A program made the translations under genes and the position numbers. A stretch of DNA of 36,442 nucleotides from Oxalobacteraceae bacterium (GTDB lineage Bacteria; Pseudomonadota; Gammaproteobacteria; Burkholderiales; Burkholderiaceae_D), in the NCBI GenBank assembly GCA_023259175.1, contig JAHFQV010000031.1:1-36442 (forward strand), in the 5' to 3' direction. The notes under the pieces were generated by a model that ran no database searches, was not told the origin of the DNA, and worked only from the letters and a program-made list of their open reading frames with translations. Positions 3,189-25,538 of the stretch are shown here, piece by piece (the stretch's first letter is position 1; each line of letters opens with the position of its first letter).

Positions 3189-5501
3189 ATGGATTCGTCG
3201 TCAGAACAAAAAGAATTACTTCGTCAACAGTTACGCCAGGCTGCGTTGGAATATCACGAATTTCCTTCGCCAGGAAAAATCAGTGTCACTCCTACAAAAC
3301 AATTAACCAATCAACGTGATCTCGCCTTGGCCTATTCGCCCGGTGTCGCATCGCCTTGCGAAGAAATTGTTGCAGATCCAGCCGCGGCATTCAAGTACAC
3401 CGCTCGTGGCAATTTGGTCGGCGTAATTACCAATGGTACGGCGGTGCTGGGTTTGGGTAACATCGGCCCACTCGCTTCCAAGCCGGTGATGGAAGGTAAG
3501 GGCGTGCTCTTTAAAAAATTTGCTGGCATCGATGTTTTTGATATTGAAATTAACGAATCCGATCCAGATAAATTAGTCGATATTATTGCCTCCCTTGAGC
3601 CTACTTTTGGTGGGATTAATCTCGAAGATATCAAAGCACCCGAGTGTTTTTACATCGAAAGAAAACTCCGTGATCGTATGAAAATACCGGTCTTTCATGA
3701 TGATCAGCACGGCACCGCAATTATCGTGGGTGCAGCGATCATGAATGGTTTGAAAGTCGTTGAGAAAGATATTAAGCAATGCAAGTTGGTGGTCTCAGGC
3801 GCAGGCGCGGCGGCCTTGGCCTGCTTAGATTTAATCGTGGATTTGGGCTTTCCGATTGAGCATATTTTTGTCACTGATTTAGCCGGTGTGGTGTATAAAG
3901 GTCGCCAGGAATTGATGGATCCGGACAAGGAAAAATTTGCTCAGCAAACCAGCGCTCGTAGTTTGAAAGAGGTGATGGTTGACGCGGATATTTTTCTAGG
4001 ATTGTCGGCCGGTGGTGTACTTAAACCCGATATGGTGAAAACGATGGCGGCGCGACCTTTGATATTGGCGCTCGCAAATCCCACACCTGAGATTTTGCCC
4101 GAAGAAGTGCGATCGGTACGCGACGATGCAATCATGGCGACGGGGCGTTCGGATTTTCCGAATCAGGTTAATAATGTGCTCTGTTTCCCGTATATTTTTC
4201 GCGGTGCTTTAGACTGTGGTGCGACGACCATCACAAGAGAAATGGAAATCGCGGTAGTCCATGCGATTGCAGATTTGGCGCAGGCCGAACAGTCCGATGT
4301 AGTGGCCACGGCTTACGGTATATCCAACCTTTCCTTTGGCCCTGAATATTTGATTCCCAAGCCTTTCGATCCGCGCTTGATGATAAAAATCGCGCCTGCT
4401 GTGGCTAAAGCGGCGGATGAATGTAAGGTCGCTGCGCGTCCAATTAAAGATATGCAGGCCTATATTGATCGCCTCCAGCAATTTGTTTATCACAGCGGCA
4501 CGTTCATGAAGCCGCTGTTTCAAATTGCCAAGAAAACGCCTATGGAGAAAAAACGCATTGTCTTTGCAGAGGGTGAAGAAGAGCGTGTTTTACGGGCGGT
4601 GCAAGTGGTGGTCGATGAAGATTTGGCGCGACCTATTTTGGTGGGACGTCCGCACATTCTCGAGCAGCGCATTGAAAAATTTGGTTTGCGTTTGCGGGCT
4701 GGAATTGACTTTGAGATGATCAATCCAGAGATGGATGCGCGTTATCGTGATTACTGGCAGACCTACCACCAAATGACCTGCCGCCAAGGCATCACTGAGC
4801 AGTACGCGAAATTGGAGATGCGCCGTCGGCATACTTTGATAGGCTCGATGATGCTGCATAAGGGCGATGCCGATGGCATGATCTGCGGCACATTTGGAAT
4901 TGGCAGCTTACACCTGTTTTACGTCAACCAGGTATTGGGTAAACGCGAGGGCGTGAAGGTTTATGCGGCGATGAATGGATTAGTCTTACCTGATCGTCAG
5001 TTGGTCTTGGTTGATACTCACATCAATGAAAATCCAACGGCCGAGCAGATCGCTGAAATCACGATTATGGCGGCCGAAGAAATGCGCCGTTTTGGCTTGC
5101 AACCGAAAGCTGCTCTGCTCTCCCATTCAAATTTCGGCTCCAGCAATACCGAGTCCGCCAAGAAAATGCGCGCAGCATTAGCGATTATTCAGCGCGACGC
5201 ACCTGATTTGGAAGTTGATGGGGAAATGCACGGCGATAGTGCATTGGATGCCGATTACCGGCAAAAAATTATGCCGAGTTCCAATTTGACGGGCGACGCT
5301 AATTTGCTGGTGATGCCTAATATCGATGCCGCCAATATTGCGTATAACCTCCTTAAAACAGCCGCAGGAAATAATATCGCGATAGGGCCGATTTTATTGG
5401 GTTGCGCTAAACCCGTCCATATTTTGACCTCCTCCTCTACTGTTCGTCGTATTGTCAATATGACTGCGCTGTGCGTGGTTGATGCTGTTTTCCAACGCTA
5501 A
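3189..5501 (+). CDS. maeB: NADP-dependent malic enzyme with C-terminal phosphotransacetylase-like domain
   Basis: A 770-residue cytoplasmic enzyme that decarboxylates malate to pyruvate, usually with NADP. Residues 1 to about 430 are the malic enzyme part: [11 protein letters not shown] near 50, [11 protein letters not shown] near 85, [11 protein letters not shown] near 145, DDQHGTA near 172 and a Rossmann motif [12 protein letters not shown] near 203. Residues from about 440 to the end match the phosphate acetyl/butyryl transferase fold ([40 protein letters not shown]). In MaeB this domain is thought to be regulatory, binding acetyl-CoA. Length fits the family (about 760 residues). AAGGAA stands 9 nt before the ATG. 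The gene stands alone, followed by a strong terminator. Confidence 0.95.
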
Positions 5502-5523
5502 TTTCCTCGTCAAGACCTTCACC

Positions 5524-5555
5524 AAACAGCAGCTTGCTTAGCTGCTGTTTTTTTT
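5524..5555 (+). terminator. Rho-independent terminator of maeB
   Basis: A perfect 10 bp stem (AAACAGCAGC at 5524-5533 paired with 5541-5550) with a 7 nt loop, followed by a run of T to 5555. It lies 22 bp after the maeB stop. The tract of A before the stem could also give weak termination on the other strand. Confidence 0.92.
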
Positions 5556-8295
<2,740 letters not shown>

Positions 8296-8310
8296 GTCAT
8301 TCGAAAGCTT

Positions 8311-8330
8311 GGGTATTTTTCGAAATACCC
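8311..8330 (+). terminator. Hairpin just after the M4 protease stop codon
   Basis: A perfect 8 bp stem (GGGTATTT with AAATACCC) closed by a TTCG loop, 15 bp after the stop codon. UUCG loops give very stable RNA hairpins. No T run follows, so it may protect the 3' end of the mRNA rather than end transcription itself. A stronger terminator lies at 8477. Confidence 0.5.
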
Positions 8331-8362
8331 TAGTCTCTAGAGATGAAGGCAAATTTCCATTC

Positions 8363-8382
8363 ATTCCCGTGAAAACGGGAAT
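8363..8382. repeat. REP-like palindrome
   Basis: ATTCCCGT-GAAA-ACGGGAAT is a perfect 8 bp stem with a GAAA loop. It resembles the ATTCCCGC...GCGGGAAT palindromes scattered between genes in many beta- and gammaproteobacteria. Whether it is repeated elsewhere in this genome cannot be seen here. Confidence 0.45.
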
Positions 8383-8476
8383 TCTTTGACGCCTTGTTAA
8401 AGGCATGGAGAATTGCTTTTCTTAGTGTGATGTGGGAAAAACGGAACTAGCGCTTGCTTGATTCAGTTTGACCCTG

Positions 8477-8509
8477 AAAAAGCCGACATGCACCGTGTCG
8501 GCTTTTTTG
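8477..8509 (+). terminator. Strong rho-independent terminator
   Basis: A perfect 12 bp stem (AAAAAGCCGACA at 8477-8488 with 8496-8507) and a 7 nt loop, followed by more T. The A run on the other side makes it likely to work in both directions. It separates the M4 protease from the convergent small zinc-ribbon gene. Confidence 0.9.
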
Positions 8510-8563
8510 TTTTAAAAAACCTCCGCGCTTCCCTAGCGTTTTGATGAGGGAAAGCCGCGTTGG

Positions 8564-8776
8564 CTAATGATGGTGCGACCAATGCCCGTCTTCAGATGCC
8601 AAATAAGCTTTGACCGTCGCTTGATCTCCGGTCGCATGTTTTTTGAGTGTGCCGCAATCACAAATTCCCTGATAGGCTTGAATATGTGCGCAAGTGGAGA
8701 GTTTTTGTAAAAAAACTTTGACGAACTTTCCGCATTGTTCGCATTTAAAGTGGAGAATACGTGCTGGCTTGTTCAT
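8564..8776 (-). CDS. Small zinc-ribbon-like protein of unknown function
   Basis: A 70-residue protein with two cysteine pairs, CEQC (C12, C15) and CDC (C39, C41), plus C29. It ends in a His-rich tail (DGHWSHHH). The spacing fits a small zinc ribbon or another metal site, and there is no signal peptide or membrane segment. The gene is short, but the cysteine pattern and its position ending 54 bp beyond a bidirectional terminator support it. No strong Shine-Dalgarno sequence is seen before the ATG. I do not recognise a named family. Confidence 0.6.
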   Translation of the reverse strand: MNKPARILHFKCEQCGKFVKVFLQKLSTCAHIQAYQGICDCGTLKKHATGDQATVKAYLASEDGHWSHHH

Positions 8777-8884
8777 GGCTAGTGGATGGCATGTAAAGGT
8801 GTGTGAGCCGAGATTTTATCGTATTTAGATCGACCGAAAAAAGAATCGGCACTTTTGCCGTGTTTTAGAATTTTTACTACGCTG

Positions 8885-9433
8885 ATGAAATTGAATACCT
8901 ACCTCGCCCTATTTAGAGGCATTAATGTCGGTGGCAAAAATATTTTGCCGATGAAGGATTTGCTCGAACTCGTGACCCAACTAGGCGTGCAGAAAGCGCG
9001 AACTTATATTCAGAGTGGTAATCTTGTTTTTGATGCTAAGCCAGCCGATTGCGCCACCATTGAGCAGCAAATCCGCCTCGCGATTAAAGCGCGCTTTGGT
9101 TTTGAGCCAGCGATTATTTTAATCGGTGCCAAGCAGCTTGCGCAGATCATCGAAGCTTCGCCATTTTCAAGCACAGAAGAACAAGCGCAAAGCGCACATT
9201 TTGGTTTTTTGTCGAAGCCAGCGACGCAGGCGGATATGCAAAAGCTAGAAAAAATGTGCAAAGAAAGTGAGCGCTTTGTATTGACCGAACAAGTTTTTTA
9301 TCTGTTCGCCCCAGAAGGACTCGGGCAATCGAAATTAGCCGCTGGTGCCGAAAAAGCGCTCGGTGTGCAAACCACATTTCGCAATTTTCGTACTGTCCTT
9401 AAGTTGCGTGAAATGGTGTCTAATCGCGTCTAG
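8885..9433 (+). CDS. DUF1697 family protein
   Basis: A 182-residue cytoplasmic protein. The start, TYLALFRGINVGGKNILPM, followed by LGVQKARTYIQSGNLVFDA at about 35-53, is the hallmark of DUF1697. The family is widespread in bacteria and its biochemical role is unknown. The ATG at 8885 matches the usual family start (MKLNTYLALFRGINVG). A TTG at 8855 would add ten residues with no support. It stands alone on the plus strand and converges on the response regulator gene. A short inverted repeat (AGGCCG at 9457-9462 with CGGCCT at 9480-9485) between them could be a weak shared terminator. Confidence 0.88.
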   Translation: MKLNTYLALFRGINVGGKNILPMKDLLELVTQLGVQKARTYIQSGNLVFDAKPADCATIEQQIRLAIKARFGFEPAIILIGAKQLAQIIEASPFSSTEEQAQSAHFGFLSKPATQADMQKLEKMCKESERFVLTEQVFYLFAPEGLGQSKLAAGAEKALGVQTTFRNFRTVLKLREMVSNRV

Positions 9434-9504
9434 TGGTATCCGAACGAAGTTGAGTTAGGCCGAGTAAATTTTTCAGTAGCGGCCTTAATTGGTGCCTACG
9501 ACAC

Positions 9505-10203
9505 TTATGCTTCCGGTCGTGCAGTGCGAATGCCTAGGCGCGACACTTCGATTAGTAATTCTGTCCTGCGCGCCACGCGAAAAATTCGAAATAATTTGGG
9601 TACATAGTGTTTTCGTATAGTGCCTTCTTCGACATTCATTTTGCAGGCGATCGTTTTGTTGGGTAGGCCCTGACATAGATAATATAAAACCTCAAGACTG
9701 CGTCCCGCGATGCCTAAAGTTTCGGCTGAAACGATGGTTTCTGTGGGTGTTTCTCTGTGATTGATACGGTCGTATTCAAATAGGTCGAGCGGGATAAAAA
9801 TTCCACCTTCGAACACCGTATTGAGCGCGTTTCGAAAAACTTCATCGCTGTCTGAGTTTTTGGATATAAATCCACTGGCACCTAAATTGAGGCATTCCAA
9901 CACCAAGGATTTGTCTGAGCTTGCCGAGAGCATGATAGTTCGCACATTGATTTCATGGCTGCGAATAAAGGCGAGTACATCCCGTCCATCATGAGTTGAA
10001 TTGAGGTCGATATCCAAAAAGAAGAAGTCGAAACTGTATTCGCTTAATGCCTTGACTGCATCTTCATAGCAAGAAACTTCCACAATTTTCGCTTCTGGTT
10101 CGGTGATGTGTATCAATTCGCGCATGCCTGCGCGCACCAGTCCCTGATCTTCTAATATTAAAATTGTTTTTTGGTCGCTGCTGCGTTTGGGGGTTTCATT
10201 CAT
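9505..10203 (-). CDS. LuxR/NarL-type response regulator
   Basis: A 232-residue transcription factor. Residues 13 to about 130 form a receiver domain with the acidic pair E18/D19, the phospho-acceptor D64 in FFLDIDLN and the conserved lysine K115 in GFISKNSD. Residues of about 160-220 form a LuxR-type helix-turn-helix (LEVLYYLCQGLPNKTIACKM, then VEEGTIRKHYVPKLFRIF). The typical N-K-x-I-A turn is present. It starts 2 bp after the stop of the hybrid kinase, so the two are almost certainly cotranscribed and form one signalling pathway. Its targets are unknown; the neighbouring secreted proteases are candidates only by position. Confidence 0.92.
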   Translation of the reverse strand: MNETPKRSSDQKTILILEDQGLVRAGMRELIHITEPEAKIVEVSCYEDAVKALSEYSFDFFFLDIDLNSTHDGRDVLAFIRSHEINVRTIMLSASSDKSLVLECLNLGASGFISKNSDSDEVFRNALNTVFEGGIFIPLDLFEYDRINHRETPTETIVSAETLGIAGRSLEVLYYLCQGLPNKTIACKMNVEEGTIRKHYVPKLFRIFRVARRTELLIEVSRLGIRTARPEA

Positions 10204-10205
10204 CT

Positions 10206-13200
10206 TCAGCTCGCACGATTAGACTGCGCATTGGTTTTAAGTCCCATTGAAACTGGGGCGTCTGGCTTGTGATCGGTTGGGGGTTCGGAAGGATGTTTGC
10301 AAAGCTTATCAATTTCTTCGATCAATGTGTGGGGCGATACCGGTTTGGTGAGTATCGTGCAGGTTTGCACGATGTCGTCAGGGATTAGATGTTTCGATTC
10401 GCCAGTGATAATGATGGCAGGGATGGCGTGACTAAATTCTTTGCGCAAAGCGGCAATGACATCTCTGCCGGTCCAGTGGTTTGCGAGTAAATAGTCGGTC
10501 AAAATCAGGTCAGGCATGCGTTCTATGTAAGCTAAATTATCGAGCAGGGCTTCATAGGAATGAAAAGCTTCGCAGATGATTTCAAATTCTGTGAGTAATT
10601 CCACCGTTGAGGTACGCACCAAGAGATCGTCTTCGACATAGATGACGTACAGACCCGTCAAGCTGACGCTCGATTCGGTGCTGATATTGTCTTTGTTGGC
10701 AGGCGCTGGGCCTAGGCCTTCGGCGCGCGGGAGGTCAAGATAAAAACGCGTACCATGCCCTAAATTTGAGCGCATAAACATCGCGTGACCCGTCAACATT
10801 TCTATCGTCGCGCTGACAATGGATAAGCCCAAGCCTAAGCCTTTTTCACGGTCCCTTTCTTGATTGGCGACTTGATAGAAGGCTTTAAAAATATTATTTT
10901 GGTCGGAAGGGGCGATGCCGATACCATTGTCAAGAACGTAGAGTCGGCAAAATTTCATGAAAACGACCAGCCGTATTACCACGATGGCGGCTTCTTTTTT
11001 ATCTGGCTTGCTGTATTTGATGGCGTTCGAAACTAGATTGACGATGACGCGATAGAGTAGGTTTTGATCGCTCTGGATAAAATAATGTTTGCCGCTCTTT
11101 TTTTGGCAACGAATTTTGACCTGACGTTCATCTGCAAAAGGGCGCATCGATGTAATCACTTCATCGATCATCTCACCTAAATCGAAGACACTGTATTCGG
11201 GTTTGACTAAGCCAGATTCAAGGCGAGATACTTCTAAAATAGCGTTGAACGAGGAGCGCATGACATGGGTGGCATTTTGCGCTAATTGAATTAAACTTCG
11301 GCTTTTTTGCAAGTCATCACGGGCGATCGCATTTCTGAGCGCCTCGAGTAAATTGGAAATCGCCTGCATAGGTTGACGCAGATCATGTGCTGCGTCGGCG
11401 ATAAATTTAGATTTATTTTGATTTTGCTGACGTACTTCCTGGGTACGTTCACGCACGACTTCTTCTAACCAATTGCGCTGACGAATCAAGGTGCCGACAC
11501 GGAGATTGTAGAGATACCAGATCAGTCCTATGGTCAGCGTTGTGACTAAAACGCGGAACCAGTTTGTCTTCCAGTACGGTGGAGTGACGTTGATCTCGAG
11601 CGTTGCTTCTTCCTGGCTCCAGATCCCCGCTTCATTTTGTGCTTTGACTCGAAAGATATAGCGACCGGGGTCGAGATTGGCATAGTTGGCCTGCCTTATT
11701 TTGGCATCGATGGAAATCCATTCATTATCGTAATTGTCCAGTTTGTATTTGAAGCGATTTTTTGAGACATTGGAAAAATGGAGGGCCGTGAATTCGATGG
11801 TAAAGCGATTCTGTTCTTTGGGCAGTTTTACGGCGTTGTTTAGATTTTTTTTGTCTTTGCTGTTCTGCGAGTAGGCATTGATGTTGAGCGCTTGATTGCC
11901 CAGATAAAATCCTGTAATGCGAGCGATAGGTGGATAAGGATTTTTCTTGATGTGTTCCGGACGAAAAACGGTGAGGCCATTGGTTCCTCCGAAAAAATAA
12001 CGGCCATCACTGCTTTTGAAAGCAGCGCCGTAATAGAACTCCCCCTTGGTCATACCATCTTGTTCGGTGTAGTGACGCAGTTCTCCGCTTTGCATGTCAA
12101 AGTGCGAAATGCCGGCATCGGTGCTTAACCACAAATCTTGCTGGCCCCCTTCTAGGATCGCATCCACCGTTGATTCGACTGCGTAGAATTTAAACTGCAG
12201 CTTTTCCTCGGTTTCGTTGCTGATGCGGTTAAGGCCATTTTCCGTTCCTATCCAAATATGATTTTGGGTGTCCTCAATGATGACGCTGACATGACCAGGG
12301 CCTATGCTATTGGGGTCGTGTGGATCGTGGCGATAAAAATGAAATTGACCCGACTTCAAATCGAGCATTTGTAAGCCACTGGGACTGCCTATCCATAGTC
12401 GTTGTTTCGAGTCCTCAAGCAGTGCGTAGGTCGAATCATCGTAGAGGCTATTGGCGAGCCGCGCTTCATGCCGATAAAGGCGCATTTTTTGTGTTTGGTA
12501 ATCGAGAAAAGCAAGACCATTGTTGGAACTCATCCAAAAATTACCCGCATGATCGATTAAGGTTTGATAGACGATGCCGAGTTTGGGATCACTTGCCAAT
12601 CGAGGTCTCAAATAAAAGCGTCCAGTTTTGAGATCGAAACGTTCAAGTCCTGAAATCGAGGTGAGCCAAACCTGATCATGTTGGTCGATCACGATACTGG
12701 AAAAACGATCCCGCGCTGAAGCATTGAGTTCTTTGGGGGCGTGTCGGTAGATGCGTATGATGCCGGTCTTAGGATCAAGTAAGTTCAGGCCGCCGCCATA
12801 GGTGGGAATGTAGATGAGTCCATTGTGGTCACCCAAGACGGCACTAATTTTGTCGTTGCTGAGTCTTTGAGGCTTTTGTTCTTGCGAGGTATAGCGCCCG
12901 AAGCCGCCGCTGGCGAGATCAACTCGGCAGGTGCCACCGGCCCATGAGCCTATCCATAAGGTTTCAGTGTGATCTTGAAAAAGAGAATACACCTCGTCGT
13001 CGCACAAACTATTGTGATCACCGACAAAGTGGCGGAATTGGCGAAAGGTTTCGTTTTCGTGCGCATAGCGTAGCAAACCATGAGATAGGGTGCCTATCCA
13101 AATATCCCCTTGTTTATCCTCTAAAAGGCTGTACACGCGGTCGCCAATCACGTCGCTGGGTATGGGGTGGGGAAATGGGATGGCGCGCTTGCTGCTTGGG

Positions 13201-17926: not shown

Positions 17927-18385
17927 ATGGCATATTGGTTGATGAAGTCAGAACCTAGCGAAGTGAGTATTGACGATGCTTTGGCAATGGGAGCTGCACC
18001 TTGGTTTGGCGTGCGTAACTATCAGGCGCGTAATTTCATGCGTGACTTGATGAAAAAGGGCGACGGCATTTTATTTTATCACTCCAGTTGCGCCGAGCCG
18101 GGCGTAGTTGGCTTGGCTGAAGTGGCTAGTATTCCCTATCCTGATGAAACGCAGTTTGACGCTCAAAGCAAATATTACGACCCCAAGGCCACCCGCGAAA
18201 CACCGCGTTGGATCTTGGTCGACGTCAAAGCGACGCGCAAAACCCGCTTACTCAAACTCGCCGAACTGCGCGAACATCCCGACTTGGTCGAGATGACAAT
18301 ACTCAAAAAAGGAAATCGTTTATCGATTACTCAGGTCACGGCGCACGAATGGAAAGTGATTAATCAGCTGTTGAAAAAAGACTGA
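17927..18385 (+). CDS. EVE domain-containing protein
   Basis: A 152-residue cytoplasmic protein that consists of one EVE domain. AYWLMKSEPSEVSIDD at the start, WFGVRNYQARNFMRD near 28-42 and GDGILFYHSSCAEPGVVGLAEV near 47-68 are the family signature. EVE domains share the PUA-like fold and some bind modified bases in DNA or RNA. The role of this stand-alone form in bacteria is not established. Family members begin with MAYWLMKSEP or close variants, so I take the ATG at 17927 rather than the one 6 bp before. It follows the barrel gene by 12 bp and converges on speD. Confidence 0.92.
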   Translation: MAYWLMKSEPSEVSIDDALAMGAAPWFGVRNYQARNFMRDLMKKGDGILFYHSSCAEPGVVGLAEVASIPYPDETQFDAQSKYYDPKATRETPRWILVDVKATRKTRLLKLAELREHPDLVEMTILKKGNRLSITQVTAHEWKVINQLLKKD

Positions 18386-18500
18386 GAAAGTGTGCTCCAT
18401 TGTTGCGTCGAGCCCTGAGAAAACCTAGTGGCGGCGATTGAGGGCGCGTCCAAGGACTTAAATTTTTGAGGAGAAATAAGGTAGGGGACGGTAGCGAAAT

Positions 18501-18881
18501 CTAAGACGTTTGTGCGACGCCGCGCCGTGTTGTATTGACGTCGCAGGAGGACGGCTTTAAGGCAAGGCGTATCACTTCCATCGCTGTTTGCGGCTGGGCT
18601 TGGCCGCACATAAAAATATCGGCTGCCGCAAAGCCAAACTCTGGCCAAGTATGAATCGAGATATGTGATTCGGCGAGCAGTAAAACGCCAGTGACCCCCT
18701 GCATAGGGCCAAAGCTATGGAAGTGGCCCAATAAAATGGTCGCGCCGGCGGCTTCGGCTGCTTCTCGTAGTAGTTGCTCGATTAATGGTGCTTGGGTTAG
18801 TAGATCGGCTTCGATGCCGTATAAGTCAGCCAAAAGATGCCAACCCGTGGCTTGCTTAGTCGTTGGAAATAGTTCTGACAT
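18501..18881 (-). CDS. speD: S-adenosylmethionine decarboxylase, class 1B proenzyme
   Basis: A 126-residue proenzyme. It cleaves itself and forms a pyruvoyl group, then decarboxylates AdoMet to the aminopropyl donor used for spermidine-type products. The cleavage motif LLLAESHISIHTWPEFG is intact: cleavage is expected between E71 and S72. H77 and C92 (DIFMCG) match the catalytic H68 and C83 of the Thermotoga enzyme at a constant offset of nine. It is the last gene of the minus-strand arm of the polyamine/membrane cluster. A membrane-bound aminopropyltransferase is encoded on the other arm, so the product has an obvious user. A GAGGA motif about 10 nt before the ATG lies inside the inverted repeat of the MITE-like element upstream. 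The ATG itself overlaps a TAATG sequence. Confidence 0.95.
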   Translation of the reverse strand: MSELFPTTKQATGWHLLADLYGIEADLLTQAPLIEQLLREAAEAAGATILLGHFHSFGPMQGVTGVLLLAESHISIHTWPEFGFAAADIFMCGQAQPQTAMEVIRLALKPSSCDVNTTRRGVAQTS

Positions 18882-18883
18882 TA

Positions 18884-19118
18884 TCCTAAATTCCTCTGTT
18901 GACCGCTCTAAAGCTCGGTAAGTGATTGAAATATTTAACGAATACAGTCATTTGACCTTTCACCATTTTAGTGAGTACGCTACGACTACGATTGCACACT
19001 TTTTCGACTCTCTGCCGTCGTTACTCCTCCTAGCAACGTGATAGGTTGCGTCGTCGTCGCGCCTAGTCAGAGAGCCGAAAAATGCACACTCGTAGCCGTC
19101 CAACAGAGGAATTTAGGA
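18884..19118. mobile_element. MITE-like 235 bp element with 18 bp terminal inverted repeats
   Basis: The ends are perfect 18 bp inverted repeats, TCCTAAATTCCTCTGTTG at 18884-18901 and its complement at 19101-19118. They are flanked on both sides by TTA (18881-18883 and 19119-19121), which looks like a 3 bp target duplication. An imperfect inner inverted repeat pairs 18986-19014 with 19068-19095, including CTCTCTG/CAGAGAG and TTTTTCG/CGAAAAA blocks. A small GCAAC/GTTGC hairpin lies in the centre. No open frame is seen inside. Joining the two flanks gives TAATG, so the stop of the 59-aa gene would overlap the start of speD. This fits insertion of a non-autonomous element. A structured regulatory RNA is the alternative. 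Confidence 0.65.
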
Positions 19119-19298
19119 TTATTTGTGTCCGCTACCGCCGGAGCCATTGCCCCAATTGCCGCCACTGCCCGAGTGTGAGCTCCAGCTACTGCGGCCAGTA
19201 TTGCTACTATTGGGCGACGAAAAAAGGAGTGTCCCCCAGCTGATGCCAGAAAAAATCACCGTGACTATCAGGGAATACATGGAAAATTTATTTTTCAT
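19119..19298 (-). CDS. Small single-pass membrane protein with Gly/Ser-rich tail
   Basis: A 59-residue protein that I do not recognise. Residues of about 7-26 (MYSLIVTVIFSGISWGTLLF) form one membrane helix after a basic start (MKNKF). The rest is Gly/Ser/Asn-rich with Trp and His (GSGGNWGNGSGGSGHK at the end) and is probably disordered outside the membrane. The ATG overlaps the TGA of the DUF4178 gene as ATGA, a typical coupled start, so I prefer it over an upstream start at 19370. The coupling supports a real gene and cotranslation with the DUF4178 protein. Its TAA stop is the exact left flank of the MITE-like element. It may be a small subunit of the membrane complex; this is inferred from position. 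Confidence 0.7.
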   Translation of the reverse strand: MKNKFSMYSLIVTVIFSGISWGTLLFSSPNSSNTGRSSWSSHSGSGGNWGNGSGGSGHK

Positions 19299-20797
19299 AC
19301 TTCGTAATCGCTTAAAGGACTTAAAAATTTCGCCGGGTAATAAATCGCAGCTACGGCAAGCAATACCCAAATCCAGATATCGCCAAAGGCCATGAACAGT
19401 GGAATTGCATTGATCACTAGAGTCCAGATGATAAATTTTCTGGCGATGGATTTTGGTGTGGGTTCAAGGCTTTCTTTGTGCGCGGGAATTTTATTGCCAA
19501 ACCAAGCCTGAATTTGGTCGGCGGAAACCGGAGAAGCTAGTGACCAGGTCATTTCTTGCGCATTGACCTCGGCGGCGATTTTATTTTGGCCGAATTGAAA
19601 TTCGGTAACATTGATGCGGTCGCCAAGATTGACGCGCCAATTAAAAGCGCCCGCAGCAAATATGACACGTGCAGTGTAATCATACAGTTTCTTGTAGCTT
19701 TGATTGCCAAGCGTAGCAGTATCACTCTGCGTCCAGGCTGGCCATTCGCTCAAGACCTTAGCGCGAGCCCAGCCTTCGTCCGTTTCGATCAACCAAAAAA
19801 ATCCCGCACTTGCGTTGTAAAGCAAGTATTCAGTCCACTCGGTATTTTCATCATCGCAGCGTTTCATGAGACCGATGATTTGGTATGGCTTGCCGCTGAC
19901 GACGGCTTTGGCACCGAGTTCTAAACTCGTGTCCACGCGCGCCATACGATTGCCCGCTGCGAGTACTTGGGCAGTCGGGCCTGTGGTGTCGAGCTGGGAT
20001 TGGCAGCTTGGGCATCGTAAATGCGATGTTAAACCCGGTACGTAATTGACTGCGCTGCCGCAAGAGGGGCATTCTAGTGGCGTAAGCTTACCGGGAAATT
20101 TCCCCGCACTTTCTTTGATGGCATCGTCATCGCGTAGCAATTGGCATTTGAGCTGTGTCAAGCTGACCGCTTGACCACTGTACACTTTGGGCTCGCCGAT
20201 CTCCAAACTGGCAGTGGGTGTAATCGAATTCGGATCAGTTGTCGCTACGATTAGATCAGAATAGTCTAAACTTAGAAAGCTCGCTTCGGATCGAAAATCG
20301 GCAACTTTGATAGGCCATCCTTGACCGACTTTAAACGGTAATTCGCCTTGCCCTGCGATGCAACGAGCGGAGCGCACCTCGGCGGCAATAAAATTTTTCC
20401 CACCTATGCGGTAATTTTGGGATGGAAGGATATCGGAAAATTTGGGTAGGTTTTTGCCGCCGGTCTTTTCGGTCGTTAAGGTAAAAAGTCCCGAGGAATC
20501 GCCCAACCAAGCCACTAAACCATCGTCAAATAAAAGATACCATTCATTCCAAGTACCGGCTGAATATTGGAGTTGAATGCGGCCGATCACCGTAAAACCG
20601 AGCGCACCAAATACGCCTGTTGTGCCAATTTGAATGGGTGAATAGTCCTCTAGGACATCGGACATTGTGCCGAGATTCTGGACTGAATCAGCATCTTTAA
20701 GGATGGACGCTTTGCAGTATTCACATACCGCCATGACGGAGGCATGTGAACGAAACTGAACGGGTGCGCCGCAGCTAGGGCAGGAAACATTTTGCAT
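19295..20797 (-). CDS. DUF4178 protein with two zinc ribbons and C-terminal membrane helices
   Basis: A 500-residue protein with an internal repeat. The first zinc ribbon has CPSC (6-9) and CEYC (25-28), followed by a DUF4178 domain (about 50-200, with GTWNEWYLLFDDGLVAWLGD). The second ribbon has C243/C246 and C262/C265, followed by a second DUF4178 domain (about 285-430, with TEWTEYLLYNASAGFFWLIE). Two hydrophobic segments near 455-490 anchor it in the membrane. DUF4178 is of unknown function; E. coli YjfK-type proteins and DUF350 genes are frequent neighbours in such clusters. It starts 13 bp after the SPFH stop and overlaps the next gene by 4 bp. A scaffold or sensing role in the envelope is plausible but unproven. 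Confidence 0.88.
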   Translation of the reverse strand: MQNVSCPSCGAPVQFRSHASVMAVCEYCKASILKDADSVQNLGTMSDVLEDYSPIQIGTTGVFGALGFTVIGRIQLQYSAGTWNEWYLLFDDGLVAWLGDSSGLFTLTTEKTGGKNLPKFSDILPSQNYRIGGKNFIAAEVRSARCIAGQGELPFKVGQGWPIKVADFRSEASFLSLDYSDLIVATTDPNSITPTASLEIGEPKVYSGQAVSLTQLKCQLLRDDDAIKESAGKFPGKLTPLECPSCGSAVNYVPGLTSHLRCPSCQSQLDTTGPTAQVLAAGNRMARVDTSLELGAKAVVSGKPYQIIGLMKRCDDENTEWTEYLLYNASAGFFWLIETDEGWARAKVLSEWPAWTQSDTATLGNQSYKKLYDYTARVIFAAGAFNWRVNLGDRINVTEFQFGQNKIAAEVNAQEMTWSLASPVSADQIQAWFGNKIPAHKESLEPTPKSIARKFIIWTLVINAIPLFMAFGDIWIWVLLAVAAIYYPAKFLSPLSDYEV

Positions 20798-20810
20798 CGT
20801 TAGCTTGGCA

Positions 20811-21845
20811 TTAACCGATCAATTTTTTGAGTATTTCTGCCTTGGCAGCATCATAATCGACGACTGAAATTAAACCCTTATCCATTAAGCTTTTGAGTTT
20901 TTCGAGTCGGGATTCTAGCGTATCGTCTAACTGAGCTGCCGCTGTCGCATTGGCGGCCGCCGCGGGCGCAATTGCGTTAGCAATGCCTTGCGACATCACC
21001 TGACCAAATCCGATTCCCGCTGATAGACCGGCACCTAGGCCAGCTAAGCCCCCTTCATTTTGTGCCGCTAAAGGGATAGAACTAGCGACTTGATATTGGG
21101 TAAAACCTGCCATTTTATTGGCACTCAAACCGCCTTTCATGCCAGCAGAAATGCGTTCATCCAAAGCAGCTTTTAATTCGTCAGGTAGGCTAACACTGGC
21201 AACATTAAACTCATCGAGACCCACCCCGTATTTTTCAAATGACGTGAGTAATTCAGCCTTAATTTGTTGTGCCATCAGCGCCTGATTAGCGGCCATGTCT
21301 AGGAAAGACACGTTTGCACCACCGAGTGAACTTGCCATCGTGGCGAGCGTGATGCCACGCAATTGTTCTTCGACATCGTCGCGGGTGTAGGTTTCGCGGG
21401 TGCCGCTGATCTCAGTATAGAATTTCTTTGGGTCGGTGATGCGATAGGAATACATGCCAAAAGCACGTACCCGTATCATGTCGAAGTCTTTGTCACGTAT
21501 CGTGATCGCTTGGGTCGTGCCCCATTTGCGTCCGGTTTGAATCCGTGTGCTGAAAAAAACCACGTCAGATTTGAAAGGTGATGCAAACAGTTTGTCCCAG
21601 TTTTTTAAGTTGGTGAGCAAGGGTAGGGTTTGCGTGGTGAGTTTGTGATTGCCAGGGCCGAAGACATCGGCCACTTGACCTTCATTAATAAATACGGCCA
21701 TCTGCGATTCACGTACCGTGAGCATGGCACCGTTTTGGATTTCAAAATCTTCCATGGGATAACGCCACGCTAACACGCCGTCGATCTCTTCATTCCACTG
21801 CAAGACATCAATAAACTGCTTCTTAATAAATGAACCGATACCCAT
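20811..21845 (-). CDS. SPFH/band-7 protein with C-terminal SHOCT motif (YdjI-like)
   Basis: A 344-residue protein. The N-terminus, MGIGSFIKKQFIDVLQWNEE, and the blocks AWRYPMEDFEIQNGA, VFINEGQVADVFGPGNHKL and RIQTGRKWGT are those of the YdjI/virion-core type of SPFH protein. The SPFH domain covers about 25-235. An Ala/Gly-rich linker follows (about 265-310). The end, ESRLEKLKSLMDKGLISVVD plus YDAAKAEILKKL, is a SHOCT motif. In Bacillus subtilis the related YdjI, as I recall, recruits a PspA protein to the membrane. No PspA gene is present in this window. The ATG at 21845 has GGAAAA about 8 nt upstream; the open frame further upstream is not conserved-looking. Likely peripheral on the inner membrane, as an organiser or stress scaffold. 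Confidence 0.9.
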   Translation of the reverse strand: MGIGSFIKKQFIDVLQWNEEIDGVLAWRYPMEDFEIQNGAMLTVRESQMAVFINEGQVADVFGPGNHKLTTQTLPLLTNLKNWDKLFASPFKSDVVFFSTRIQTGRKWGTTQAITIRDKDFDMIRVRAFGMYSYRITDPKKFYTEISGTRETYTRDDVEEQLRGITLATMASSLGGANVSFLDMAANQALMAQQIKAELLTSFEKYGVGLDEFNVASVSLPDELKAALDERISAGMKGGLSANKMAGFTQYQVASSIPLAAQNEGGLAGLGAGLSAGIGFGQVMSQGIANAIAPAAAANATAAAQLDDTLESRLEKLKSLMDKGLISVVDYDAAKAEILKKLIG

Positions 21846-21926
21846 AATAATTTTCCAGTAAGTAAAAAAAGGTTTTTTTGATTTGATTTCGAATGGTGCG
21901 CGGAAAAAAATGAAACCTCTCAAAAA

Positions 21927-22313
21927 CTAGGAGATGCAGGCTGCATTGATGATTCCTATCGAAAGCGAGATTGCACCCATCAGCCCGCCAAAAGCAGTAT
22001 TGCCAGAGGTGATTTGATCCTTCGACATATGCAGTAGCTTAGCGCTTATCGTGTATGCTAATACCTGTACCACCATTGCGCCAGCCGCCCAAGCGAGAAA
22101 CTCGCGGTAATCGGCGGTATGGTTGACCGCAGAGGCTAAGGTCAGAGAGAAGCCGATCAAGGCCCCGCCTAAAGAGAGCGCCGCGGCATTATTGCCCTGC
22201 CTAATTAGCAGAACTTCTTCGACCGGAGTGACGGCGGTATAGATCCAAAAAAATATTGCTAACAAGCTTGAGGCTAAGAGCAAGTGGATGACATAATTGA
22301 TGATCGCAGGCAC
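21927..22313 (-). CDS. DUF350 (YjfL-type) membrane protein
   Basis: A 128-residue integral membrane protein with four predicted helices, two per repeat. The conserved block GGALIGFSLTLASAVNH near 49-65, and its partner FGGLMGAISLSIGIINAA near the end, mark DUF350. The function is unknown; E. coli YjfL is the best-known member and is also found near polyamine or glutathionylspermidine genes. The start is GTG at 22313, with GAGAA a few nt upstream and no in-frame ATG near. It is the first gene of the minus-strand arm and shares a 62 bp spacer with the divergent aminopropyltransferase gene. Confidence 0.88.
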   Translation of the reverse strand: MPAIINYVIHLLLASSLLAIFFWIYTAVTPVEEVLLIRQGNNAAALSLGGALIGFSLTLASAVNHTADYREFLAWAAGAMVVQVLAYTISAKLLHMSKDQITSGNTAFGGLMGAISLSIGIINAACIS

Positions 22314-22375
22314 GATGTTCTCGCAAAAAAATTTGAGGAAGGTTGAATTAAGTATGTTAATGCAAAATAGCGCTT
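22314..22375. promoter_or_regulatory. Shared divergent promoter region of the polyamine/membrane cluster
   Basis: Only 62 bp separate the two divergent start codons, so both promoters must overlap or sit back to back here. The sequence is A/T-rich (for example TTGAATTAAGTATGTTAAT on the plus strand). I could not fix a -35/-10 pair for either direction. The layout favours joint control of the two arms. Confidence 0.5.
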
Positions 22376-23887
22376 ATGAATAAGAAGATTTTAATTTTGT
22401 CGGTATTTGTGGTCGCTTCCTGTGGACTTGCCTATGAGTTGATTGCTGGCGCACTGTCGAGCTATTTGCTGGGCGATTCCATCCTACAGTTTTCAACGAT
22501 TATTGGTTGCTATTTATTTGCGATGGGCGTCGGTGCGCATTTTTCCAAATATGTTTCTGATGAAGATGTTCTGATGCGCTTTGTGGATATCGAACTGGCC
22601 GTGGGCATGGTGGGCGGTGTCTCGGCGGCGTGTTTGTTTTTGACTTTTTCGTGGATGGCCGCACCGTTTCGTACCTTGTTATACGTCTTGGTGTTTGTCC
22701 TAGGGTCTTTGGTCGGCATGGAAGTGCCTCTTGTGATGCGAGCGCTGAATGCCCGCCAGACGGCTTTTAATGAATTGGTTAGCCGTGTACTGACTTTTGA
22801 TTATTTAGGGGCGCTTGCGGTCTCTTTGTTGTTCCCCCTAGTATTGGCACCGCAACTGGGTTTGGTTCGCACGGGGTTTTTGTTTGGTATGCTCAATGTG
22901 GCCGTCGCTTTGTGGACGATACATGTTTTTCGGAATGAACTCAAAAATGTGATAGGTCGATTCTTGCGCGCCAGTGCCGTCATGCTGGTGTTGATGAGCG
23001 GTTTTGCGATGTCGGATCGCATGGTCAATTGGGGTGAGCATGGATTATTTGGCGATGAGATTGTTTATGCCACGACGACACCTTATCAACGCCTAGTTAT
23101 CACGCGTTGGAAGGATGACCTTCGCTTATACATCAATGGTAATTTGCAGTTTTCCTCACGCGACGAATATCGTTATCACGAGGCTTTGGTGCATCCCGCG
23201 ATGGAGGCTCTGCCTTGGGCGAAATCCGTGCTAATTATGGGCGGCGGAGATGGTTTGGCTCTGCGTGAAGTTTTGCGTTATCCCAATATCAAAAATGTGA
23301 CCTTAGTTGACCTTGATCCAGCAATGACCACCGCCTTTACGCGACGGCCGGAATTGGCGGCACTCAATCACCATTCTTTCAGTGACCCGCGGGTCAAAGT
23401 GATCAATACGGACGCTGCAATCTGGTTGCAAGATCAGCAGGACATGTTTGATGCAGCGATTATCGATTTCCCCGATCCCTCTAGTTTCGCGCTTGGGAAA
23501 CTTTATTCCGTGCCTTTTTATAGTTTTGTGAAAAAGCACCTTGCTGTCAATGGTTTGATTGTGGTGCAATCGACTTCGCCATTTTTTGCGCCACGTGCGT
23601 TTTGGACGATAGACGCGACCTTGTCAGAAGCAGGATTTCAGACCTACCCCTACCATCTCTACGTGCCCTCCTTTGGTGAGTGGGGATTTGTACTGGCTTC
23701 GCCCCAATTGAAATATCAAGTGCCGAATCAATTTCGCTTGCCCATGCGCTTTCTAAATGCCGAGACGGCGCGCGAGATGTTTATTTTTCCGCCCGATATG
23801 CCACGCTTACCGATGGCACCAAATCGGCTCAATACGCAGTCTTTGGTGCACGAATTTGAGCAAGATTGGCGTGGGGTGATACGTTGA
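22376..23887 (+). CDS. Membrane-anchored aminopropyltransferase (spermidine synthase-like)
   Basis: A 503-residue protein. Residues 1-213 hold about seven hydrophobic segments (near 5-32, 38-56, 70-92, 100-121, 141-160, 166-184, 198-213). Residues of about 225-440 are the spermidine synthase fold: DEYRYHEALVHPAM at 263-276, the AdoMet-binding loop GGGDG at 289-293, VDLDP at 311-315 and the catalytic-region motif DFPDPSS at 364-370. The soluble domain should move an aminopropyl group from decarboxylated AdoMet to an amine. The substrate is unknown and may be a polyamine or a membrane-linked amine. It is followed after 43 bp by the FAD oxidase. SpeD in the divergent arm can supply the donor. 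No obvious Shine-Dalgarno sequence precedes the ATG. Confidence 0.9.
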   Translation: MNKKILILSVFVVASCGLAYELIAGALSSYLLGDSILQFSTIIGCYLFAMGVGAHFSKYVSDEDVLMRFVDIELAVGMVGGVSAACLFLTFSWMAAPFRTLLYVLVFVLGSLVGMEVPLVMRALNARQTAFNELVSRVLTFDYLGALAVSLLFPLVLAPQLGLVRTGFLFGMLNVAVALWTIHVFRNELKNVIGRFLRASAVMLVLMSGFAMSDRMVNWGEHGLFGDEIVYATTTPYQRLVITRWKDDLRLYINGNLQFSSRDEYRYHEALVHPAMEALPWAKSVLIMGGGDGLALREVLRYPNIKNVTLVDLDPAMTTAFTRRPELAALNHHSFSDPRVKVINTDAAIWLQDQQDMFDAAIIDFPDPSSFALGKLYSVPFYSFVKKHLAVNGLIVVQSTSPFFAPRAFWTIDATLSEAGFQTYPYHLYVPSFGEWGFVLASPQLKYQVPNQFRLPMRFLNAETAREMFIFPPDMPRLPMAPNRLNTQSLVHEFEQDWRGVIR

Positions 23888-23930
23888 ATTCTTGCGGTCG
23901 GTTGTTTCAATGTTTGGCGCTGAGGTAAGC

Positions 23931-25538
23931 ATGGATCGCCGTTCATTTCTAATCTGGTCGGGCGCTACCGCTGCACTTGGCAGCGCAGGTGCCGGGCTCT
24001 GGCGGTGGCAAGAGCCGAGTACGCACATTCAGTATCCAGGGCGCGAAGTGGGGCACTATCTTCGCGATCGTCGCGCGATTCCGGCACCTTCTCTTAGCTT
24101 GCAAACGGATGTGGTCATTCTCGGTTCTGGAATTGCTGGCCTAACCGCAGCGTGGAAGATGAATAAAGACGGGCATCAGGACTTTTTGATGATCGATGGG
24201 CCTGAACCCTACGGCAATGCAGCTGGGGGGCATTTTGGCGACCTTGCTTATCCAACCGGTGGGCATTACTTGCCATTGCCATCGCCCGAATCGGTGCATG
24301 TGCGTGAAATTTTGAGCGACCTCGGCATCATTCAAAAAAACTCCATGAGCGAACGCCCCTACTATGACGAGCGCTATATTTTGCATGGACCTGAAGAGCG
24401 TTTGCTGCGTAACGGTCAATGGCAAGATGGATTTATTCCAAGCGAAGGGCTAGCGCAGGCAGAGCTACTTGAACATCAACGCTTCTTTGCCGAGGTCGAT
24501 CACATGCGTCATCTGTTTGGCAGTGACGGCAAGCGGGTTTTTGTTTTTCCGACGGCTTTATCTTCGGACGATCCGAACTATCGAGCACTTGATCAGATCA
24601 CACTGAAGACTTGGCTGCATCAGAATAACTACCATTCACCAACGCTGCATTGGTATTTGAATTATTGCTGCCGTGACGACTACGGGACGCGCTACGATCA
24701 AGTCTCGGCTTGGGCGGGTCTGCATTACTACTGTAGTCGATGGGGGAAGGCTGAGAATGCTGGCAATGGCGCATGGTTGACTTGGCCTGGCGGCATGCAG
24801 CCGCTGGCAAAAGCGATGGATCAGCGCGCGGGTAGTCGCCGCCGCAGTGGTACTGTTATTTCACTTAAAACGTGCGCCGATGGGGTAGAGGCCCTGTGCT
24901 TGGAGTTGATCAATGGCGTTGCGCAGACCTATCTTGTGCGCGCCAGAAAAGCGATTTGTGCCATGCCCTTATATGTTGCTGCTAGGGTGGTCAAGGGTAT
25001 TGAGAATTTCGGTTTTGATCCTGCGCTGCATATGCCGAGTTACGCGCCGTGGATGGTGTCGAATTTCTTGATGAAAGAATTCCCAGTAGAGTTGCCCGAT
25101 GCCCCTCTATCTTGGGATAACGTTGTGTATCAAGAACCCGGCCTCGGTTATGTCGTATCGACCCATCAGGACATCCGAACTACACCCCCAAACAAAACCG
25201 TTTTTACTGCGTACTTAGCCCTGTCTGATCACACGCCAGAGAGCGCTAGAAAATGGTTGAACAAGGCCAGCCCAGAAGAATTATTGAACGCTGCCAGCGT
25301 GGATTTAAAATCGGCTTATGGATGGAAATTTGCGCGCAGTGTAGAGCGCGTCGAGATCACCGTGCGTGGTCACGCAATGGCATCGCCCAAGCCAGGATTT
25401 TTGAGCAATGCAGGATTGAAAGCGCTGCGTGAATTGGAGGGGTCTATCCTATTTGCACACGCCGATTTATCTGGGTTCTCTGTGTTTGAAGAAGCTGCAT
25501 GGTGGGGCTATCGGGCGGCTAAGTTGGCCGTGCTGTAA
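23931..25538 (+). CDS. Tat-exported FAD-dependent amine oxidase-like protein
   Basis: A 535-residue flavoprotein. The start MDRRSFLIWSGATAALGSAG is a twin-arginine signal (RRSFL), so it should be folded with FAD in the cytoplasm and then exported or anchored. The Rossmann motif VVILGSGIAGLTAAW is at 61-75. The C-terminus, FAHADLSGFSVFEEAAWWGY followed by RAAKLAV, is the second FAD-contact region of flavin amine oxidases (where FAGE...GA..SG is usual). The substrate is probably an amine made or modified by the neighbouring aminopropyltransferase. I chose the ATG at 23931 because GAGG lies 8 nt upstream and the Tat motif begins there; a TTG at 23892 would add 13 residues. It converges on matB with an 11 bp gap. 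Confidence 0.88.
   Translation: MDRRSFLIWSGATAALGSAGAGLWRWQEPSTHIQYPGREVGHYLRDRRAIPAPSLSLQTDVVILGSGIAGLTAAWKMNKDGHQDFLMIDGPEPYGNAAGGHFGDLAYPTGGHYLPLPSPESVHVREILSDLGIIQKNSMSERPYYDERYILHGPEERLLRNGQWQDGFIPSEGLAQAELLEHQRFFAEVDHMRHLFGSDGKRVFVFPTALSSDDPNYRALDQITLKTWLHQNNYHSPTLHWYLNYCCRDDYGTRYDQVSAWAGLHYYCSRWGKAENAGNGAWLTWPGGMQPLAKAMDQRAGSRRRSGTVISLKTCADGVEALCLELINGVAQTYLVRARKAICAMPLYVAARVVKGIENFGFDPALHMPSYAPWMVSNFLMKEFPVELPDAPLSWDNVVYQEPGLGYVVSTHQDIRTTPPNKTVFTAYLALSDHTPESARKWLNKASPEELLNAASVDLKSAYGWKFARSVERVEITVRGHAMASPKPGFLSNAGLKALRELEGSILFAHADLSGFSVFEEAAWWGYRAAKLAVL

Follow-up and report, generated by a model that had tools for sequence, protein, structure and literature searches.

What do the aminopropyltransferases make that many bacteria carry in the membrane beside an S-adenosylmethionine (AdoMet) decarboxylase? 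The question is raised by a locus at positions 18,501–25,538 of a 36,442-nucleotide stretch of DNA, hereafter the window, from an Oxalobacteraceae bacterium (contig JAHFQV010000031.1 of assembly GCA_023259175.1), and the gene set found there turns it into specific tests. Two divergent arms run outward from a 62 bp intergenic spacer (22,314–22,375). The left, minus-strand arm codes, in order away from the spacer, for a DUF350 membrane protein, an SPFH protein, a DUF4178 protein, a micro-protein and the AdoMet decarboxylase SpeD; the plus-strand arm codes for a fusion of a seven-transmembrane (7-TM) domain with an aminopropyltransferase domain, followed by an FAD oxidoreductase with a signal of the twin-arginine translocation (Tat) type. 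A first-pass annotation, made by a model from the DNA alone, had described this divergent layout; the ORF ends bear it out, and all the genes it named are present as intact ORFs. In Pfam and NCBIfam profile searches against the model cut-offs, each named gene exceeds its Pfam cut-off, excepting a part of the SPFH protein described below, and SpeD and the fusion also exceed theirs in NCBIfam. We find that the two arms form one set, linked far beyond chance, which we tentatively read as a dedicated envelope module.

The linkage is seen in genomes as well as in neighborhoods (labels of the form Lnnn and Gnnn denote loci and genomes of this analysis). In a sample of 80 genomes of the window's order, comprising 49 families, the fusion (at E up to 1e-80), the oxidoreductase (at E up to 1e-30) and the DUF4178 protein are each present in 12, and these are the same 12 genomes, drawn from 6 of the families as counted by hand. 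Because shared ancestry inflates simple probabilities, we counted this co-occurrence by family, which gives 1/C(49,6) = 7e-8. In two genomes (G170, G213) the oxidoreductase gene is unlinked, lying in another neighborhood, yet has been retained, and a genome of the window's own family (G145) has none of the fusion, the oxidoreductase, the DUF4178 protein and SpeD. Among 140 genomes of the class, the oxidoreductase (at E up to 1e-20) occurs in 2, both times with the fusion beside it. At the level of loci, we took the best 80 of 588 relatives of the fusion, a set that leans to close kin, and scored the partners at the 60 with at least 4.5 kb before and at least 2 kb after the fusion, leaving out 20 with short flanks. 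All five partners are present at 45 of these 60, the left-arm genes together with the oxidoreductase at 49, and the oxidoreductase without the left arm at 2. The oxidoreductase ORF overlaps that of the fusion or lies at most 46 nt from it at 63 of 65 loci, the extent of overlap being overstated as the ORFs were taken from the first start codon. The divergent layout is kept in L002–L045, L070 and L081; at more distant loci, some of them titled as Acidobacteria, Fibrobacteres or Solitalea, those genes that were found mostly share one orientation. Far from rarely occurring together, the arms that the first-pass annotation had taken for one system are thus a single set.

The center of this set is the fusion (22,376–23,887, plus strand, 503 aa), whose identity as an aminopropyltransferase joined to a membrane domain, already proposed in the first-pass annotation, is confirmed by matches of 127 bits to PF01564 (cut-off 22.9) and 685 bits to PRK03612 (cut-off 472). 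In an alignment of 69 fusions, with 12 of the 80 loci left out, the aspartates D292, D314, D346, D364 and D367 are invariant; these we take to be the residues of the site for decarboxylated AdoMet (dcAdoMet) and of catalysis. We compared them with the 30 highest-scoring SpeE proteins of the class sample, all of which were used because a regular expression for the canonical SpeE kept only 6 of the 30, gammaproteobacterial SpeE having GGGDCG. The fusions have F433 where 30 of 30 SpeE have Tyr, the FP of DFPDP where 29 of 30 have Ser and 28 of 30 Thr, T400 against Glu in 25 of 30, and A405 against His in 23 of 30. Some of these positions presumably line the putrescine pocket of SpeE. Relative to canonical SpeE, the fusions therefore share the domain and appear to keep its donor-site and catalytic residues, and they differ in having a transmembrane domain, a transferase domain poor in cysteine and what looks to be an altered acceptor side. 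As side observations, the PADLOC model mad2 picks up the transferase domain with 52 bits, probably through a shared methyltransferase-like fold, and the fusion was matched in 12 records of a plasmid collection, of which one that was inspected carries no annotation; these records were not used further.

The membrane part of the fusion is likewise conserved. Five of its acidic residues (E21, D34, E73, E116 and D142) are invariant in the 69 fusions, as would suit the passage or the holding of a cation. By hydropathy and the charge of the two loop sides, seven hydrophobic segments precede the transferase domain and the N-terminus lies inside in all 69: Lys and Arg together average 10.1 on the side of the N-terminal loop and 1.3 on the other, with the same sense in 69 of 69. 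With an inner N-terminus followed by seven crossings, the transferase domain would be periplasmic and thus on the same side as the oxidoreductase; this location is a prediction only.

The oxidoreductase (23,931–25,538, plus strand, 535 aa from its ATG) probably starts at ATG 23,931, giving MDRRSFL, rather than at the listed TTG 23,892. It scores 28.5 bits with PF01593 (cut-off 19.8) and 28.9 bits with NAD_binding_8 (cut-off 21.9), placing it in the flavin amine oxidase superfamily. In an alignment of 41 sequences, which leaves out 25 of the 65 oxidoreductase-bearing loci, the twin-arginine motif has its first Arg in 41 of 41, and its second Arg and the following Phe in at least 90%, as in a Tat substrate; the Tat model PF10518 gives 15.1 bits against a cut-off of 22.7. 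Paired arginines are found in 53 of 57 N-termini, one of them (L003) having been read in a wrong frame, and 4 further ORFs had been dropped when the pattern for the FAD motif missed them. A lax scan finds a lipobox-like Cys in 10 of the 57, and some of these proteins, as well as the unlinked copies in G170 and G213, resemble Tat lipoproteins. None of the best 60 of 114 PDB matches exceeds 38 bits, and they are divided among protoporphyrinogen oxidase, LSD1 and the L-amino acid, putrescine, polyamine and monoamine oxidases; at their head stand a protoporphyrinogen oxidase and 2b9w, a structure that carries the title ‘putative aminooxidase’ and is a fatty-acid isomerase. Since the matches are so spread and weak, neither a polyamine substrate nor the use of oxygen can be assigned to the flavoenzyme. 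Of the earlier description as a Tat-exported, amine-oxidase-like protein, then, the superfamily match and the conserved twin Arg stand, and the ‘amine oxidase’ label holds at superfamily level only. Separately, the gene in L003 (11,512–13,142) is seemingly split between two frames near its start, and the flavoenzyme has a weak PADLOC desaturase match.

At the far end of the other arm, speD (18,501–18,881, minus strand) codes for a 126-aa AdoMet decarboxylase of class 1b size, scoring 126 bits with PF02675 (cut-off 25) and 129 bits with TIGR03330 (cut-off 75.65). The intact cleavage site claimed for it is indeed there: the ESH site has E71 and S72, and these, with H77 and C92, we presume to hold their usual roles. 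It is the only PF02675 match in the window's genome. Between speD and the spacer, apart from the micro-protein gene, lie three genes of the minus strand. That for the DUF4178 protein (19,295–20,797, 500 aa) matches PF13785 at 79 bits in two stretches; the product has zinc-ribbon-like parts, for which the zinc-ribbon models score mostly under their cut-offs, and a C-terminal hydrophobic stretch seen by eye. The SPFH protein (20,811–21,845, 344 aa) matches the Band_7_1 model PF13421 at 239 bits and ends in a SHOCT-like domain that, at 24.3 bits with PF09851, stays under the cut-off of 27. The DUF350 protein (21,927–22,313, 128 aa, PF03994 103 bits) starts with GTG. Half-length DUF350 copies, of about 70 aa against 128 aa in the window, occur in L138–L141, L075 and L080, where they lie between the micro-protein and the fusion.

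The first-pass annotation had counted four envelope proteins and named only three, the SPFH, DUF350 and DUF4178 proteins; a fourth nevertheless exists in the form of the micro-protein (19,119–19,298, minus strand, ATG at 19,298), which begins within the end of the DUF4178 gene, start and stop codon sharing a 4-nt overlap. It has 59 aa, with one hydrophobic helix, a tail rich in Gly and Ser, as in most micro-proteins of these loci, and a C-terminal His-Lys. Relatives have counterparts at the corresponding place: an unforced scan of 71 loci found exactly one candidate at 64, ending in HK at 58 and in GK at 5. A terminal lysine is thus common to 63 of 64, although the tails differ strongly in sequence. 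The remaining candidate (L003, ending in ‘AR’) is a wrong ORF, and a separate scan finds an HK copy at that locus. One locus (L033) has several candidates, one of them with HK, and six have none in the unforced scan (L054, L056, L061, L074, L120 and L122), of which L061 has an HK ORF by another scan and L120 one further off. Other scans returned 39 of 64 (strict) and 57 of 67 (forced to end in [HN]K); we rely on the unforced count. The five GK-type loci (L065, L073, L076, L077 and L079) are, by title and taxonomy, presumably four acidobacterial ones and one gemmatimonad. Instead of the HK type they have a second type of micro-protein, with a motif like KS(V/I)R(E/D)NPG and a GGK or LGK end. 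Three micro-proteins searched against Pfam and six searched against NCBIfam gave no match, and we met no description in the literature on these gene families, no search having been aimed at the micro-protein itself.

How might these parts act together? We favor, at somewhat under an even chance, a dedicated module that would aminopropylate an acceptor in the envelope and then oxidize the result. SpeD would make dcAdoMet in the cytosol; the 7-TM domain would tether the aminopropyltransferase domain to the membrane, its predicted place being the periplasmic face; and an acceptor bound in the envelope, not free putrescine, would receive the aminopropyl group from the fusion. The Tat-exported oxidoreductase encoded next to it could then oxidize the product or its amine, while the SPFH-SHOCT, DUF4178 and DUF350 proteins and the micro-protein would serve as a membrane platform, the conserved C-terminal lysine of the last being a candidate acceptor or docking tail. 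An aminopropylated envelope molecule would gain 57 mass units (+57), and a periplasmic transferase domain, if true, would mean AdoMet-derived chemistry outside the cytoplasm. In a narrower version, which we consider quite improbable, the micro-protein itself is the substrate: its C-terminal Lys, or His-Lys, would be aminopropylated at the outer side of the inner membrane by an outward-facing transferase using exported dcAdoMet, and then turned into a reactive aldehyde or a cross-link by the Tat flavoenzyme. The formation of deoxyhypusine on eIF5A and the aminopropylation of microcin C are works-like analogues, in which an alkylamine is transferred onto a protein lysine or a peptide, and if this version were true the module would be the envelope equivalent, in bacteria, of hypusination with subsequent lysyl-oxidase chemistry.

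Several observations weigh against an envelope module of this kind. The left arm occurs without the oxidoreductase at 5 of the 60 scored loci, and at 4 (L046, L052, L059 and L063) the fusion is alone, with none of the five partners within the flanks examined. Segments 2, 6 and 7 of the membrane domain are weaker than the others, their best 19-mer reaching at least 1.6 in 18, 53 and 50 of the 69 fusions respectively; eight fusions of other subfamilies have the same charge bias, but by a rough tally only 3 of them have seven segments and the other 5 have six. Cysteine is scarce in the transferase domain, at 0.15 per 100 aa compared with 1.68 for the 30 SpeE, but this supports the topology weakly, the presumably cytosolic SPFH protein being equally poor in it (0.11 per 100 aa). 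A periplasmic transferase would need dcAdoMet outside the cytosol, for which we know of no precedent, and the flank charges of the micro-protein, 1.19 and 1.12, do not give it an orientation. Finally, a stand-alone SpeE match at E 1e-25 was found in none of the 12 genomes of the order sample with the set, and a genome of the class sample with both fusion and oxidoreductase (G060) is without a SpeE over the cut-off, as expected if the fusion replaces SpeE.

The last two points lead to the main alternative, namely that the fusion is a membrane-tethered spermidine synthase and the cell's only route to spermidine, with the oxidoreductase in polyamine catabolism and the SPFH, DUF350 and DUF4178 proteins managing polyamine effects on the membrane. 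This we regard as somewhat unlikely. In its favor is the distribution of SpeD, which is present in 26 of the 80 order genomes: 12 with the fusion set and 14 others with a stand-alone TIGR00417 match beside speD, without overlap. Since SpeD occurs only with a fusion or with SpeE, it is linked to the fusion, even if in 4 of the 12 genomes (G141, G189, G198 and G213) the two lie on different contigs; the same pattern also fits a fusion standing in for SpeE. The exclusion of the set and stand-alone SpeE is, however, not significant (0 genomes shared, 2.1 expected, P 0.08), and 54 of the 80 genomes have no SpeD match. That donor and catalytic residues are intact agrees with spermidine synthesis, as does the window's genome, whose other three PF01564 matches are without the GGGDG and DxxDP motifs; the altered acceptor side disagrees with it. 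The fusion scores 130.9 bits with TIGR00417 and so falls short of the cut-off of 249.55, a weak test as the 14 speE adjacent to speD also stay below it (188–249) and 0 of 80 genomes exceed it. Against this alternative speak related fusions, of which 6 in the 8 class genomes examined (L128–L135) coexist with a SpeE over the cut-off, including L131 with its context of SPFH and DUF4178 genes; of the ten class fusions fetched (L128–L137), these eight closer ones were counted, and the genomes of the more distant two, L136 and L137, have such a SpeE too. A 2019 study by Li and colleagues reportedly found that such fusions fail to complement a speE deletion and proposed an acceptor that is not a polyamine. 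Among the PDB structures that match the oxidoreductase comparatively well is the putrescine oxidase 2yg6, over profile positions 59–356. Burkholderia cenocepacia, a species represented in our set by a homologous locus (L036, from another strain), is described for strain K56-2 as secreting small amounts of spermidine (PMC3700957), which would accord with spermidine synthesis.

According to the same paper, deletion of two annotated spermidine synthases in K56-2 makes resistance to polymyxin B slightly lower (PMC3700957), and this bears on another reading, in which a lipid head group, for instance that of phosphatidylethanolamine, would accept the aminopropyl group, so that membrane charge would change and the flavoenzyme would tailor the lipid. 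Either synthase gene may or may not be a fusion of the window's type. The 7-TM domain, the SPFH and DUF350 neighbors and the top two PDB hits of the oxidoreductase would suit a lipid acceptor, and the weakness of that superfamily match, at best 38 bits, tells against it; we think it unlikely. Least probable by far is an envelope-stress module of the Psp type that has PspA recruited by the SPFH protein, a link which the first-pass annotation had drawn from the known role of the family. Related operons with PspA and DUF350 are indeed in print (PMC11237479), and one of our class loci (L130) is an example by family tests, coding for PspA, DUF2170, a DUF350 protein of 300 aa and a protein weakly related to DUF4178; L132–L135 resemble it by eye. 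However, the window's genome, 95.8% complete, yields no protein that fits the PspA model PF04012, and of the 12 genomes with the set 2 have a match and 10 have none, so that recruitment of PspA is not the mechanism here and a requirement for PspA in the window's clade is refuted. The PspA-type operons also carry a more distant fusion (298–324 bits in L130 and L132–L135, against 791–819 for the set in L138–L141); near them we found no oxidoreductase or SPFH protein of the window's set, and L130 has a large lipoprotein of 323 aa, unlike the window's micro-protein. A single HK-ending ORF near a PspA-type fusion (L132) was rejected, as it runs antisense to another gene.

How far, then, is the set of the window already known? 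An AdoMet decarboxylase with an MFS-SpdSyn fusion and DUF350, like the SpeD, fusion and DUF350 found here, was reportedly described by Li and colleagues in 2019. That neighborhoods with these families appear in surveys of Psp-type genes, as the first-pass annotation had stated, holds for the general kind of cluster. Among 35 papers that mention DUF4178 or DUF350, DUF4178 appears in PMC11237479 alone. In the portions of the survey of Ravi et al. (2024; PMC11237479) drawn on here, the group 2 operons combine CesT/Tir-PspA, a 7-TM spermidine-synthase-like fusion, DUF350 and DUF4178, and Li et al. (2019) are cited for the aminopropylation of other substrates. The fusion, DUF350 and DUF4178 are thus common to group 2 and the window's set, which differs in having an SPFH-SHOCT protein in place of CesT/Tir-PspA and a shorter DUF350 (128 or about 70 aa), in adding SpeD, the Tat oxidoreductase and the micro-protein, and in that no large lipoprotein was seen. 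Unlike in L130, neither CesT/Tir (DUF2170 type) nor PspA was found among the cluster proteins scanned, and the set accordingly does not belong to group 2. The same portions describe a variant of a glutathionylspermidine-synthetase-like group with a band-7/2TM/SHOCT protein, an AdoMet decarboxylase and a polyamine oxidase (PMC11237479). This variant shares with the window a band-7/SHOCT protein, an AdoMet decarboxylase and an oxidase, whereas its operons also carry an ATP-grasp ligase, DUF1190 and DUF2491, families without a match among the cluster proteins scanned in the window; those portions make no mention of a micro-protein for it. Beyond what is in print we add the micro-protein, the all-or-none co-occurrence test, the independence from PspA and the prediction of topology.

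Some minor features of these loci deserve mention. Between the micro-protein gene and speD of the window lies a palindromic element of 243 bp (18,880–19,122) with inverted ends of 22 nt and a fold z-score of -8.2, which supplies the sequence just upstream of the speD start. With 44 matches in its own genome, counting itself, it is probably a MITE-like dispersed repeat and not part of the mechanism; because it is dispersed, we rejected the hairpin before speD as a regulatory RNA, and an Rfam search of 18,300–22,450 returned nothing at E 0.1. In L131 (genome G039, 5,229–12,614), a closely related fusion is accompanied by an SPFH gene, a half-length DUF350 and a DUF4178 gene split into two ORFs; the flavoenzyme of the window's set is absent there, and the cluster adjoins genes of the TelA and Halogen_Hydrol families.

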